Shown in pieces: positions 13,281 through 22,273 of a stretch of DNA of 33,993 bases; position 1 is the first letter of the stretch; each line of letters begins with the position of its first letter. The notes beneath the pieces are model-generated. The model saw only the letters and a program-made list of their open reading frames with translations. It made no database searches and was not told the origin of the DNA. Made by a program: the position numbers and the translations under genes. Origin of the DNA: Ruminococcaceae bacterium UBA5391 (GTDB lineage Bacteria > Bacillota > Clostridia > Oscillospirales > Acutalibacteraceae). The stretch lies in contig DHOL01000012.1 in the NCBI GenBank assembly GCA_002410755.1, forward strand, positions 12,794 to 46,786, given 5' to 3'.

Positions 13281-14060
13281 TCAGGCTTCCTTTCCAATCA
13301 GGCGGCTGCTTTCCGGGTCGAGATAGAGAAATGAATTGTCGTGGCGGCGGAGGACTGTTGCGGGGCACGCTTCGCCGATATCCCAGGTGACCATGCGGCG
13401 GACAGCCTCGGCTTTGGTGGCGGCGGGGACAACGCAATAAAGGCAGGCACCGTTCATCAGCGCAGGGACTGTCAGCGTCAGGGCGTGTGTCGGGACTTCG
13501 CTGAGGGACTGGAAGCAGCCGTCGTGGACCTGCTGGTTGCGGCAGACAGAATCGAGCGGGACGACTTTTACAAGGTGCGGGTCGCTGAAGTCCGCAACAG
13601 GCGGGTCATTAAAAGCAATATGGCCGTTTTCGCCGACGCCGAGGCAGACAATATCAACGGGGTTTTTCCTCAGGAGATCAGCATAACGGGCGCATTCTGC
13701 GTTACGGTCCGGATTTTGGCCGTTCAGGTAGTTGACGGATTTAAACGGGACCTTTGAGAAAATGTGCTCGCGGAGGAAATTGCCGAAACCCTGCGGTGCA
13801 TTGGCGGGCAGGCCAACATATTCGTCCATATGGAAGGCGTTGATGCGGTTCCACTCAATGCCGGGCTCTTTAACGAGGGAAGCCAGCATCTCGTTCTGAG
13901 AAGGCGCCGCAGCGAAAATCATGTTGATTTCGCTTTTCTTTGAGAGCAGCTCGCGGATTTTTGCGGCGCAGTCTTTTGCAGCCGCAGCCCCCATGTCTTC
14001 GCGGCTGTCGTAGCACCTTACGACGAGCTTATCCTTCTTTAATTCACTTGTTATTGCCAT
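13281..14060 (-). CDS. NagB-family sugar-phosphate isomerase/deaminase, divergent
   Basis: Homologue of glucosamine-6-phosphate deaminase (GlcN6P to fructose-6-phosphate and ammonia). The 259-aa product is about the family length and keeps the signature FHMDEYVGL (D79, E80) and GENGHIAFNDP (H147). Two departures stand out. The phosphate-binding loop, normally a GGTP-type sequence, reads AAAPSQNEM near 50-58. The residue matching E. coli E148 is D152, and that matching D141 is N145; Asn at the latter position also occurs in other NagB proteins. It may be a NagB paralogue acting on a different or unphosphorylated amino sugar. AAGGAG lies about 9 bases before the ATG at 14060. It heads the operon with the ConA-like protein, EamA transporter and GH2 enzyme. 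Confidence 0.85.
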   Translation of the reverse strand: MAITSELKKDKLVVRCYDSREDMGAAAAKDCAAKIRELLSKKSEINMIFAAAPSQNEMLASLVKEPGIEWNRINAFHMDEYVGLPANAPQGFGNFLREHIFSKVPFKSVNYLNGQNPDRNAECARYADLLRKNPVDIVCLGVGENGHIAFNDPPVADFSDPHLVKVVPLDSVCRNQQVHDGCFQSLSEVPTHALTLTVPALMNGACLYCVVPAATKAEAVRRMVTWDIGEACPATVLRRHDNSFLYLDPESSRLIGKEA

Positions 14061-14249: not shown

Positions 14250-14283
14250 AAAAAAGAATTTCCACCTGTCGGAAAATGTAAAA

Positions 14284-14288
14284 GGAGG
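14284..14288 (+). promoter_or_regulatory. Ribosome binding site deciding the start at 14298
   Basis: GGAGG (within AAAGGAGG) is 9 bases from the ATG at 14298 but only 3 bases from the ATG at 14292, so the second ATG is preferred. Confidence 0.7.
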
Positions 14289-14297
14289 ACTATGTTC

Positions 14298-15062
14298 ATG
14301 CGTTCGGCATATCATTTCTTCGACTGCCGTGCTTCTTACGGCATGAGATGCTACCGGGCTCCCGGCAGCTTTTACCGCAAGGAAGATCTGCTCCGCAAGA
14401 TGGCGGATTACAGTATTGACTGTGCACTTGTTTACCATTCCCTTTCTAAAGAATACGACCCGATGGTTGGCAACCATGTGCTCTGCCGGGAAATTAAGGA
14501 TGACAAGAACCTTTTTCCGGTCTGGGCTGTCCAGCCGCACTACACGGGTGAGTTTGACACGCCTTCAAAGCTCCTTGAGGACATGAAGGCAAACGGTGTG
14601 AAGGCGCTTACCATGTTTCCAGCCCCTTCAAGCCAAAACTTCAGCTTTGCGGAATTTACGTGCGGAGAGATTTTCCACATGTGTGAAGAGCACCAGATTC
14701 CGTTCTTTGTCGACATGGATCAGATGGGCGGCATTGCCGCGGTTGACTGGCTCTGTGCGGCGCACCCGAAGCTGCCGCTTGTTGTGACAAAAGTCAATTA
14801 CCGCATTGACCGTGACCTTTATCCCCTGCTTGACAAATACCGTAATTTTTACATTGAGGTATCCGGCTACAAGCCTTTTGAGGGCATTAAGAGCATCTGC
14901 GAGCGCTTCGGGGCCGGCCGCCTGATCTTTGGGACCGGTATGCCGGAGAGCGCGGGCGGAGCAGCTGTCGGCCTTGTGACCTATGCTGACATCACCGACT
15001 CCGAAAAGAACATGATTGCTTCCGGAAATCTTAAGAAACTGCTGGGAGGCGTTGCATTATGA
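14298..15062 (+). CDS. Amidohydrolase_2-fold protein lacking metal ligands (possible pseudoenzyme)
   Basis: The 254-aa product resembles the next protein in layout and belongs with the Amidohydrolase_2 TIM barrels, but its metal-binding positions are gone. Where the partner has DEHNH this protein has FDCRA (C10 and A12 at the two histidine positions). The stretch with the late histidine (AHMGG in the partner) reads VTKVNYR, and the terminal catalytic aspartate (GTDMP) is glycine, G214 (GTGMP). Other surface and core features, such as WAVQP and the ADITDSEKN segment near the end, are kept, so the gene is not simply decaying. Its stop overlaps the start of the canonical partner by four bases (ATGA). 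I infer a non-catalytic or differently catalytic subunit that may form a heteromer with the partner. Confidence 0.85.
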   Translation: MRSAYHFFDCRASYGMRCYRAPGSFYRKEDLLRKMADYSIDCALVYHSLSKEYDPMVGNHVLCREIKDDKNLFPVWAVQPHYTGEFDTPSKLLEDMKANGVKALTMFPAPSSQNFSFAEFTCGEIFHMCEEHQIPFFVDMDQMGGIAAVDWLCAAHPKLPLVVTKVNYRIDRDLYPLLDKYRNFYIEVSGYKPFEGIKSICERFGAGRLIFGTGMPESAGGAAVGLVTYADITDSEKNMIASGNLKKLLGGVAL

Positions 15063-15874
15063 TGAAGATTGCAGACTATGCAAAGGCGGGCCTTCCGATT
15101 AAAGATGTCCCGATTATTGACGAACACAACCACCTGGGGCGCTGGGGTGCTTTTTATGTGCCGGGCGGCGGTACCATTGACCAGATGGTCAACCGCATGG
15201 ATCAGGTGGGCATCTCTAAAATCTGTGTCACGGCGCACGCATCCATAGGCCCGGACTATGTCTACGGAAACAACCTTGTGATGGATGCCCTTAAGCGCTA
15301 TCCGGATCGTGTAATCGGCTATGTGACCGTCAACCCGAACTACCCTGAGGATATGCAGCATGAGCTGGACCGCTGCTTTGCGGTTCCGGGGTTCCGTGCC
15401 ATCAAGTTCCACCCGGAATGCCATGGACAGCCAGTTGACTGCAAGGGCTATGAGGCAGCGTTCGAGGAAGCCGAAAAACGCGGATGCCCTATCCTCATCC
15501 ATGTCTGGGGCGATGATGCTGTCCGCGCAGTGGACGGCCTTGCCCCCCGTTTCCCGCATGCAATCTTTATCATGGCACATATGGGCGGCACGGACGGCCA
15601 TTCCATGGAAAAGGCAGTCGATGTGGTCAACCGCCATCCGAATGTTTACGGAGACGTTGCACTTTCCCGGCCGACGGAAGGAAATATTGAATGGCTTGTA
15701 AAAGAAATCGGCTCCAAGCGCGTCCTTTTTGGTACGGATATGCCGTTCTATGATCCCAGTCACGTAATCGCCCGTGTGGCGCTTGCTGACATTACCGAAG
15801 AAGAGAAAAAAGACATTTTCTACCGCAATGCGGCAAAAATCATGAAACTGGATAATCCGGAATACCGGAAATGA
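15059..15874 (+). CDS. Amidohydrolase_2 family metal-dependent hydrolase
   Basis: Cytoplasmic (beta/alpha)8 metal hydrolase of 271 aa. Canonical ligands are readable: H23 and H25 (IIDEHNHLG), H148 (ILIHVWG), H174 (IMAHMGG) and D227 (LFGTDMPF). Members of this family hydrolyse lactones, decarboxylate aromatic or keto acids, or cleave C-N bonds. In a sugar locus with a Gfo/Idh oxidoreductase, a sugar-lactonase role is the most plausible guess, but no substrate motif is decisive. The start at 15059 overlaps the stop of the degenerate partner (ATGA) and has GGAGG 9 bases upstream, so the two are probably made in equal amounts. A second ATG follows immediately and could also serve. The next gene's ribosome binding site begins 16 bases after the stop. 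Confidence 0.9.
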   Translation: MMKIADYAKAGLPIKDVPIIDEHNHLGRWGAFYVPGGGTIDQMVNRMDQVGISKICVTAHASIGPDYVYGNNLVMDALKRYPDRVIGYVTVNPNYPEDMQHELDRCFAVPGFRAIKFHPECHGQPVDCKGYEAAFEEAEKRGCPILIHVWGDDAVRAVDGLAPRFPHAIFIMAHMGGTDGHSMEKAVDVVNRHPNVYGDVALSRPTEGNIEWLVKEIGSKRVLFGTDMPFYDPSHVIARVALADITEEEKKDIFYRNAAKIMKLDNPEYRK

Positions 15875-19957: not shown

Positions 19958-22273
19958 ATGAGCCATGCAAGTGTTGAGAACTATCACGGTGAACCTGCCA
20001 TTATGATTGACGGTGTCCCTTATCCCCCCATGGGGATGGTGACGCATATCCAGAAGCCGGATTATCTCCGTCATCTCGGAGAAGCGGGGCTGAAACTTTT
20101 CTTCATCCCATCCGAGACTCGCTGGTTTAACCCCGGAGGCCGGAAATACACCGACAGCAACGGTGTCGAGCGCACCGACCTCAACGGCATCGACCAGTTT
20201 AAGCACGATGTTGAGATGCTCCTCAAAGCTGTGCCGGATGCCTATGTGATTGTCCGCCTGTATCTTAATCCCCCTGTTTCGTGGGTGAAGTCCCACACCG
20301 AAGAGCTGATGCGCTATAATGACGGCTCAACGCAGCCGGCTATTCTTGCAAGCAATGACAGGCTTTACACGCTGCCCGGCATGTATTCCCTTTGCAGTGA
20401 TGTGTGGCGCCATGACGGTGACAAGGCCCTCGGAGAATTTTTCGACGAGATTGAAAAGTTGCCCTATGCGGACCGCATTGTCGGCTTTTTCCTCGGTGCC
20501 GCCGGAACGAACGAATGGTATCCCATCAATCCGCTGACCGACTACGAAAAAAAGATTTATGCAGACTTCTGCCCGCCGTTCCGCAAGGAGTTCGGCAATT
20601 ACCTGCGGAAAAAATATGGGACGGAGGAAAACCTGCGCCGCGCCTGGAGGCGTGACGATGCAAGCTTTGACAACCCGATTATCCCGGACATTGAGGAACG
20701 CGCATTTACCCGCATCGATGACACAATTCTTGACGCGCTGAAGCATTATGAGAGCGCCGCGCGCATTATCGGCAAGAAAATCGACATGAATCCAAAGGCA
20801 AAGTCAAACATGGGCGTTTTTCTTAATGCCGACGATTATCAATATGTTGCCGATTTTTACCATGCGTGGCATCATGGCACGGCAAACACGATTGTCCATT
20901 TTGCCAGGACGGTAAAAAAGCGTTATCCGGATAAGCTGGTCGGCGCATTTTACGGCGCCTACGGCTGTACGGATTTCTTCGATTTCTCCACGGCGGAGGC
21001 TACGCTTTCCATTATGGATTCCGGCTCGGTGGATTTTCTTGCTGCTCCGGGTGTCTACAATGACCGCGAACCCGGTGGCTGTGTTGCACAGCGCGAGATG
21101 AATGACTCGTTCCGCATCCGCAACCAGATCTATATTTCTGAGGAAGACAGCCGCACTCACCGTGAAACCGATTTTTACCGTGACTGCATGGGACTCTATA
21201 CAATAAAAGATACCATTACAACCCTGAAACGTGATTTTGCGCGCAACCTGTGTGAGGAGACCTATGCCTGGTGGATGGACCAGCACGAGGGTGGCGGCCG
21301 CTACATGGACCCGGATATCTACAAACTTTTCAAACGCCAGAGTGAAATTGCAAAGTTTGCCTACAGCCTTGACCGCACAAAAGAAAATGATATTGCACTG
21401 ATTTATGATCAGGAGAGCGTCCACTATGTTTCCCAGAATACCAGCAACACGATGCTCGACTACTACCGGACCTCTGATCTTTCCAGAATCGGCGCGCCCG
21501 TTGACTATTATTTCCACAATGATATGTCGAACCCGAAGATGCGCGACTATAAAATGTATGTGATGATTAACACATTTTGCCTGACGGAAGAGGAGCGCAA
21601 TGCCGTTCACCGCAAGGCCGCAAGGAACCACGCGACGGTTGTCTGGCTGTATGCCCCGGGTTTTATTGACCTTGGCGCCGACCAGCGCATGAGCAACAAA
21701 AACATTGAAAAGACAACGGGTATTGCAGTCGGCCGCATGGACGAAACCCGTTCACCGCGCTTCCGCGTCATAAGCGAAAATCACCCGGCACTGCGCTTTG
21801 CAGACCATGACCGGATTTACGGCTTTATCGACCGTGAAGTCCACAGCAATGTCTGGCCTGGCTCGGTGCTTACAACGCCGTTCCTCAACCCGGCATTCTA
21901 TATTGACGATCCGGACGCAACCGTGCTCGGCCGGTTCTGCCTCGACGGCCAACCAGCCCTTGCCATGAAGGAAACGGGCGGATTTACCAGTGTCTACTGC
22001 ACGTCCCAGATTCTCCGCTCTGAACTGCTTGCTTCGTTTGCCTCGTTTGCCGGGTGCCATCTTTATTCCCATACCGATGACATCGTTTATGCGAACCGCA
22101 ATTTTGTGACAGTCCATGCGCACTTTACCGGCCCACGCACCATCTATTTCCCGGAGGAATGCAGCCCCTACGAAGTTTACGAACGCCGGTTCTACGGGCA
22201 TAATGTCCGACAGATTACCGTGTCCATGCACCGCGGCGATACCCTTATGTTCTCGCTGCGCGGTGAATGCTGA
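19958..22273 (+). CDS. Clan GH-A-like putative glycosidase (GH42-like layout)
   Basis: Putative retaining beta-glycosidase of 771 aa. The barrel carries GAAGTNEWYP with an Asn-Glu pair (N185-E186) typical of the clan GH-A acid/base. IYISEED (E395/E396) fits the nucleophile strand near barrel end. A flavodoxin-like or GATase-like domain follows (about 460-640: NDIALIYDQESVHYV, YKMYVMINTFCLTEEE), and then a C-terminal beta domain, overall like GH42 beta-galactosidases and related families. I cannot name the family; no exact GH42 signature is evident. No signal peptide. A TTG 24 bases upstream is in frame, but AAAGGAAAGG ends shortly before the ATG at 19958, which is preferred. It follows the GHL6-like gene by 47 bases and precedes the LacI gene by 30. 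Confidence 0.86.
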   Translation: MSHASVENYHGEPAIMIDGVPYPPMGMVTHIQKPDYLRHLGEAGLKLFFIPSETRWFNPGGRKYTDSNGVERTDLNGIDQFKHDVEMLLKAVPDAYVIVRLYLNPPVSWVKSHTEELMRYNDGSTQPAILASNDRLYTLPGMYSLCSDVWRHDGDKALGEFFDEIEKLPYADRIVGFFLGAAGTNEWYPINPLTDYEKKIYADFCPPFRKEFGNYLRKKYGTEENLRRAWRRDDASFDNPIIPDIEERAFTRIDDTILDALKHYESAARIIGKKIDMNPKAKSNMGVFLNADDYQYVADFYHAWHHGTANTIVHFARTVKKRYPDKLVGAFYGAYGCTDFFDFSTAEATLSIMDSGSVDFLAAPGVYNDREPGGCVAQREMNDSFRIRNQIYISEEDSRTHRETDFYRDCMGLYTIKDTITTLKRDFARNLCEETYAWWMDQHEGGGRYMDPDIYKLFKRQSEIAKFAYSLDRTKENDIALIYDQESVHYVSQNTSNTMLDYYRTSDLSRIGAPVDYYFHNDMSNPKMRDYKMYVMINTFCLTEEERNAVHRKAARNHATVVWLYAPGFIDLGADQRMSNKNIEKTTGIAVGRMDETRSPRFRVISENHPALRFADHDRIYGFIDREVHSNVWPGSVLTTPFLNPAFYIDDPDATVLGRFCLDGQPALAMKETGGFTSVYCTSQILRSELLASFASFAGCHLYSHTDDIVYANRNFVTVHAHFTGPRTIYFPEECSPYEVYERRFYGHNVRQITVSMHRGDTLMFSLRGEC

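Follow-up and report, generated by a model that had tools for sequence, protein, structure and literature searches.

The window analysed here is a stretch of 33,993 nucleotides of Ruminococcaceae bacterium UBA5391 (contig DHOL01000012.1, positions 12,794 to 46,786), and this report concerns two adjacent genes on its forward strand, P1 and P2, which encode two members of the Amidohydro_2 family (PF04909). P1 (14298-15062) encodes a 254-residue barrel protein without metal ligands, assigned by its PF04909 match and its predicted fold. P2 (15059-15874) encodes a 271-residue protein with a full ligand set, assigned by PF04909 and by ligand alignment. Both proteins scored above the PF04909 cut-off of 26.4 bits, P1 at 35.3 bits and P2 at 127.2 bits, in agreement with the initial annotation, which had described two similar amidohydrolase genes overlapping by 4 bases. 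An NCBIfam search at an E-value of 0.001 returned a model for neither. The overlap is the sequence ATGA, with the ATG of P2 starting at 15059 and the TGA of P1 at 15060-15062. A Shine-Dalgarno-like AGGAGG, read directly at 14283-14288, lies 9 nt 5' of the ATG at 14298; a start at 14292 would leave a spacing of 3 nt, and for this reason the start at 14298 was favoured.

The metal-ligand columns were taken from an alignment of 126 homologous domains, 65 of them degenerate and 61 partners. P2 carries all five ligands, namely His23 and His25 of the HxH pair (15125-15133), His148 (15500-15502), His174 (15578-15580) and the catalytic Asp227 (15737-15739), which are exactly the residues first claimed for it. 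P1 carries none of the five. In the alignment the HxH ligands are replaced by Arg11 and Ser13, with Ala12 between them (14328-14336), His148 by Asp139 (14712-14714) and His174 by Lys165 (14790-14792), and the catalytic Asp is replaced by Gly214 (14937-14939), also evident from the sequence itself. The residues that the initial annotation had listed for P1 (C10, A12, VTKVNYR from residue 163, and G214) are all present, but C10 and A12 were placed one residue out of register; its statement that P1 is stripped of every metal ligand holds in the aligned columns.

P1 was predicted with confidence to fold as an amidohydrolase barrel, with a predicted local distance difference test (pLDDT) score of 95.8, which removes the objection that the protein might have an unrelated fold. 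The top structural matches of P1, and also the top profile matches of its family, were 3irs (BB4693) and 3cjp (CAC3332), uncharacterised Amidohydro_2 structures that were deposited as single proteins. Another structural neighbour, at 10-14% identity, is 4mup, which we take to be the metal-free galactarolactone isomerase Atu3138. It resembles P1 in having an amidohydrolase barrel and a place in sugar-acid catabolism, and is a structural neighbour only.

A protein search returned 38 relatives of P1, of which 24 were aligned first and 34 in a later alignment. A scan of genome contigs with the P1 sequence alone found no relative. An alignment-based scan restricted to P1-type sequences, in which each species was represented by a single genome, found 65 loci. 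By their record titles these cover at least eight phyla: Clostridia and other Bacillota, Armatimonadota, Chloroflexota, Bacteroidota, Ignavibacteria, Balneolaceae, Rhodothermaceae, Spirochaetes, Latescibacterota, Planctomycetota and one actinobacterium (Jiangella). In these loci 44 degenerate rows keep no ligand and 21 keep one, the strand-5 His in 14 rows that are all Chloroflexota by title; none keeps two. The 34 rows of the protein search agree. The HxH pair occurs in none of them (His at the first position in 2/34, at the second in 0/34), His is found at position 139 in one row and at 165 in none, and position 214 is never Asp (Gly 27, Cys 3, Asn 2, Ser 1, Ala 1). In contrast to the degenerate rows, the partners hold all five ligands in 58 of the 61 that were read; two of the exceptions, L010 and L048, are truncated rows, and the third, L071, has Gly at 148. 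The loss of metal ligands in P1 is thus coordinated, as had been proposed from the window's copy, and is fixed in a conserved family. Where the annotation of P1 relatives is telling, it reads 'amidohydrolase family protein' or 'metal-dependent hydrolase'; judged from their residues, these proteins cannot be metal-dependent hydrolases in the usual sense.

The P1 family has conserved residues of its own. In the 34 protein-search rows Asp9 and His47 are invariant and Thr83 is found in 32. His81, Tyr82, Thr83, Gly84 and Glu85 (14538-14552) form a signature, PH(H/Y)TGE, after strand 3, in which His81 is kept in 31 rows (Asp in two and Pro in one of the others) and residue 85 is always acidic (27 Glu, 7 Asp). 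The Gly-Glu of this loop is an insertion that has no counterpart in most partners, the Glu column being a gap in 53/61. Since the pattern used for the 65-locus scan includes the motif PH(Y/H)T(G/D)(E/D), the presence of His81 and Thr83 in 65/65 loci is not independent evidence. Arg172 (14811-14813), after strand 6, lies outside that pattern and is Arg in 34/34 protein-search rows and in 64 of the 65 locus rows, the remaining one being a gap. Among the partners, no more than 16 of 61 have Arg in this column. The conservation of Asp9, His47, His81 and the acidic residue at 85 (Glu or Asp in 34/34) might point to a metalloenzyme with a relocated metal site. This is very improbable, as all five classical positions are replaced, and Asp9 is common to the partner and is not among the partner's five ligands.

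A ligand-bearing partner was present in 61 of 61 evaluable loci. It was adjacent in 37, fused in 22 and separated in 2. The remaining four loci (L013, L021, L052 and L066) were not evaluable, with the contig ending 0-13 nt past the P1-type open reading frame (ORF). In the adjacent pairs the mechanically called ORF ends lie -199 to +77 nt apart, except at L072, where an upstream start codon lengthened the ORF to give -612 nt. In the fusions both halves share a single reading frame, the degenerate one leading, and the ORFs span 434-623 residues, mostly near 540; that of L048 runs off its contig. In the two separated cases, L023 and L025, the partner stands downstream in the same gene run, behind one or two heparinase II/III-type genes, identified by a Pfam scan in L023 and by similarity in L025.

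Further genomes, 300 from the window's family and 398 from its phylum, gave 14 distinct hits of at least 100 bits, all of which adjoin a gene of the partner family. Partner ligands were read in seven of these besides the window; one of the seven is L125, whose interrupted frame is fusion-like and which could be read in part (three positions). In a reciprocal search of the 300 genomes with a P2-type profile, the seven top-scoring hits (238-386 bits) were exactly partners of P1-type genes. Hits at 173-211 bits (two copies in G252, and G150, G088 and a second copy in G162) have a degenerate domain next to them or in the same chain; G150 is a fusion inside the window's own family. At 157 bits and below, genes without a family neighbour begin to occur, interspersed with ones that belong to other pairs. 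The initial annotation had asked whether the pair always co-occurs, and among these homologues no solitary first gene was found. The genetic association of P1 with a ligand-bearing paralogue was obligate, the activity of the partner being judged from its ligands. At L084 (613-2295), in the window's own family of bacteria, a P1-type and a P2-type domain are naturally joined in one chain of 560 residues.

The identities of the two proteins were also compared across loci. For this comparison 47 of the 65 loci were kept, 45 of them with a partner, after five truncated rows and loci more than 85% identical had been dropped. The mean pairwise identity was 0.36 for P1-type proteins versus 0.32 for their partners, with a correlation of r = 0.93 over 990 locus pairs. 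Because relatedness inflates such a correlation, it was taken only as a sign that P1 and P2 travel together. Matching subclades in the domain tree show the same. The loss of all ligands in the window's copy would suit a duplicate gene that is decaying into a pseudogene. However, its frame is intact and is preceded by a ribosome site, and the family is kept in several phyla with its own invariant residues and a mean pairwise identity at least equal to that of its partner. These conservation counts contradict decay for the P1 family, and we regard it as scarcely credible. Since the pair is kept adjacent or fused in several phyla, P1 is probably a needed half of a working enzyme and not a dying gene.

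The partnership of P1 and P2 is well supported. The proposal that they form a heteromer of an active and an inactive barrel, already suggested in the initial annotation, is likewise well supported as far as gene arrangement can speak, with complete linkage and natural fusion as its basis; the existence of natural fusions makes a heteromer much more likely. A model of the fusion protein gave two amidohydrolase barrels (pLDDT 92.1; predicted template modelling score, pTM, 0.91), with the same top structural matches and the same 4mup neighbour as P1. A physical P1-P2 complex would accord with the fusions and with the pTM of this model, both of which bear on it indirectly. Alternatively, P1 could be an enzyme of its own, with the barrel rebuilt as a metal-free catalyst (e.g., a lactone or sugar isomerase) whose product is exchanged with P2. 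Its conserved polar residues and its resemblance to 4mup would suit such a role, which we consider unlikely although worth serious attention. Enzymes that work independently would not have to stay linked, or to merge into one chain, in lineage after lineage, yet the pairing is complete wherever it could be judged.

Our best guess for the mode of action of P1 is a composite active site. P1 and P2 would be obligate partners in a heterodimer, and the metal-free P1 would complete the P2 active site in trans, a reading whose chances we put at about even. A homodimeric Amidohydro_2 ancestor would have given rise to the two-subunit heterodimer. P2 would hold the sole metal site and carry out the chemistry, and P1, its metal site permanently lost, would have been kept as a co-encoded partner, in some lineages within the same chain. 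Arg172 above all, together with the loop of His81, Thr83 and Glu85, may contribute to the P2 active site from the other side of the interface, and may hold an acidic sugar substrate. In the available passages of PMC11650718, Arg239 of the adjacent subunit of ACMSD is essential and lies 11 residues past His228, and the role proposed for Arg172 is likened to that of this arginine. Arg172 stands just past strand 6, 10 residues past the position of P2 His174 in the alignment, and the P1 loop itself is shorter (7 residues in 62/65 rows). In the profile alignment the residue of gamma-resorcylate decarboxylase (3s4t) that matches Arg172 is also an Arg; the available passages on that enzyme (PMC7862292) give no trans arginine.

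Pairing and fusion would also suit a P1 that is only a structural or allosteric subunit, acting in folding, oligomer assembly or regulation, as the inactive dihydroorotase does in Pseudomonas aspartate transcarbamoylase. A pure scaffold, however, leaves unexplained why His47, PHxTGE and Arg172, which lie in the loops after strands 2, 3 and 6, are among the most conserved residues of P1. We hold this explanation to be improbable, slightly more so than an independent P1 enzyme.

Several observations weigh against the composite active site. Fusion and linkage are proof of partnership, not of mechanism, and the interface and the proximity of Arg172, His81 and Glu85 to the P2 metal would have to be as we infer them. 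The correspondence of Arg172 to Arg239 is one of spacing, not of residue alignment across strand 6. In the independent rows, His81 is missing from 3/34 and Thr83 from 2/34, and the conserved polar residues at the top of the P1 barrel would be just as compatible with a pocket belonging to P1 itself. At L124, the only locus for which coding DNA was compared, P1 is less conserved than P2 (46% versus 56% identity), opposite to the general trend. The ratio of non-synonymous to synonymous substitution rates (dN/dS) of P1 and P2 against L124 was uninformative, as synonymous sites were saturated.

Two known systems are comparable. ACMSD and related Amidohydro_2 decarboxylases (PDB 4ifk, 2hbv, 2dvt, 3s4t) share the family, but ACMSD is a dimer of identical metal-bearing subunits, whereas one partner of P1-P2 lacks the metal and the two are encoded by separate genes or as halves of one chain. 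The inactive dihydroorotase of class A aspartate transcarbamoylases and the defective dihydroorotase-like domain of yeast URA2, as described in the available parts of PMC4581275 and PMC11818841, are like P1 in being pseudoenzymes of the amidohydrolase superfamily that were retained as a subunit or as a fused domain. In those parts, however, the partner of the inactive dihydroorotase is an unrelated transcarbamoylase, whereas the partner of P1 is an active paralogue of the same family. The available passages of a paper on bile salt hydrolase (PMC13081902) do not mention an inactive partner. Literature searches for such active/inactive pairs among open-licence papers found no description, which is weak evidence of novelty. 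If the pair as a whole is the enzyme, P2-type proteins assayed alone may look dead or wrong.

P1 and P2 open a run of genes in the same direction. The run includes three large proteins (one matching melibiase below threshold, one carrying a GHL6 domain together with a GH42 trimerisation domain, and one with no Pfam match), a LacI regulator, an N-acetylglucosamine (GlcNAc) 2-epimerase-like protein, NagA (TIGR00221, above cut-off) and a Gfo/Idh/MocA-type oxidoreductase. It also includes a DegT-kind sugar-aminotransferase-like protein and a fructuronate-reductase-like dehydrogenase, both below NCBIfam cut-offs, and mannonate dehydratase UxuA and 2-keto-3-deoxy-6-phosphogluconate (KDPG) aldolase, both above cut-off. 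From this gene content the locus was read as one for the catabolism of uronates and amino sugars. Across the 65 loci, Gfo/Idh/MocA-type genes were found in 22, class III or DegT-type aminotransferases in 26 and heparinase II/III-type genes in 15, as counted by sequence clusters that were each labelled from one to three Pfam-scanned members, with unequal flanks and with some loci close kin. The window has both Gfo/Idh/MocA-type and aminotransferase genes. As to the substrate, it is a fair guess, but only a guess, that a glycan containing uronate supplies an acidic sugar or an amino sugar.

Other proteins near these genes were also noted. A 771-residue protein in the P1-P2 run (19958-22270) matched no Pfam or NCBIfam model at an E-value of 0.001. 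Divergent from the pair, on the reverse strand, is a NagB-like gene (13281-14057) that scored well below the glucosamine-6-phosphate deaminase equivalog cut-offs; the phosphate of some other amino sugar may be its substrate. A protein of about 793 residues without a Pfam match was seen at L058 (2435-4813), with relatives in 10 loci. These loci belong to Bacteroidota and Ignavibacteria, and in most of them its gene comes directly after the fusion gene.

The initial annotation knew of no described pair of this kind in a sugar locus. That stood as far as the open-licence literature goes, but such pairs are not confined to P1 and P2. In the source genome, which is 71% complete, five PF04909 places were found, all in three active/inactive pairs. 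In the two further pairs, on contigs C3 and C6, the order is opposite, with the ligand-bearing gene first, and the degenerate lineage is marked by a GxWPFR motif. This lineage gave seven hits of at least 200 bits in the 300 genomes, each with a partner-type reading upstream (7/7): five with all five ligands, the fragment on C6, and that of G038:C85, where the partner-type hit contains three in-frame TGA codons. Other tandem pairs of the phylum showed graded ligand loss, with HHENH, HHHSD, HHQSD, HHYHD and NFSHC beside HHHHD. Of 15 tandem pairs, 14 had one member with all five ligands and one with fewer, and the fifteenth was the broken L125; these pairs were chosen for visible adjacent hits, so that 'one intact, one defective' is a description and not an unbiased rate. 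Among 10 solitary genes used as a control, seven read HHHHD, two HHHHE and one HHCHD, and single-position departures therefore also occur without a partner. No counts were drawn from a tandem PF04909 survey of 398 genomes, which scored no more than five candidates in each.

In a FastTree phylogeny of the distant domains, the P1-type clade had a support of 0.97. Deeper nodes were poorly supported, which makes any count of origins approximate. Since defective members fall at different places in the tree, loss in one tandem member has probably occurred several times. A bolder reading, tentative and at a probability we set just short of even, is that asymmetric active/inactive heterodimers are a recurrent design in Amidohydro_2: the gene of a homodimer is duplicated and, time after time, one of the two copies gives up its metal site. 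The ancestral homodimer would, with the same reserve, have shared active-site residues across its interface, so that the metal-less copy could survive as a trans-acting half. The P1 type, the GxWPFR type and the partial-loss pairs L132, L134 and L135 would, no more firmly, represent separate origins. If true, enzymes with composite active sites would form a class, each of them entered in databases as two separate amidohydrolases. Graded losses together with natural fusions would make the evolution from homodimer to heterodimer testable within one fold.

The individual pairs are as follows. The second pair of the source genome, at L006 (3858-5537, contig C3), has the ligand-bearing gene first and the GxWPFR gene second, and lies directly downstream of an ORF in which a GDS motif was seen by eye. 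The third degenerate amidohydrolase, of GxWPFR type, is at L008 (6289-7038, contig C6), where the end fragment of a partner is readable upstream and an aminotransferase-like ORF, again recognised by eye, stands downstream. Tandem pairs with one partially ligand-depleted member were seen at L132 (5113-6599), L134 (5235-6769), L135 (4677-6230) and L133 (4545-5994), and these four are possible intermediates of ligand loss.
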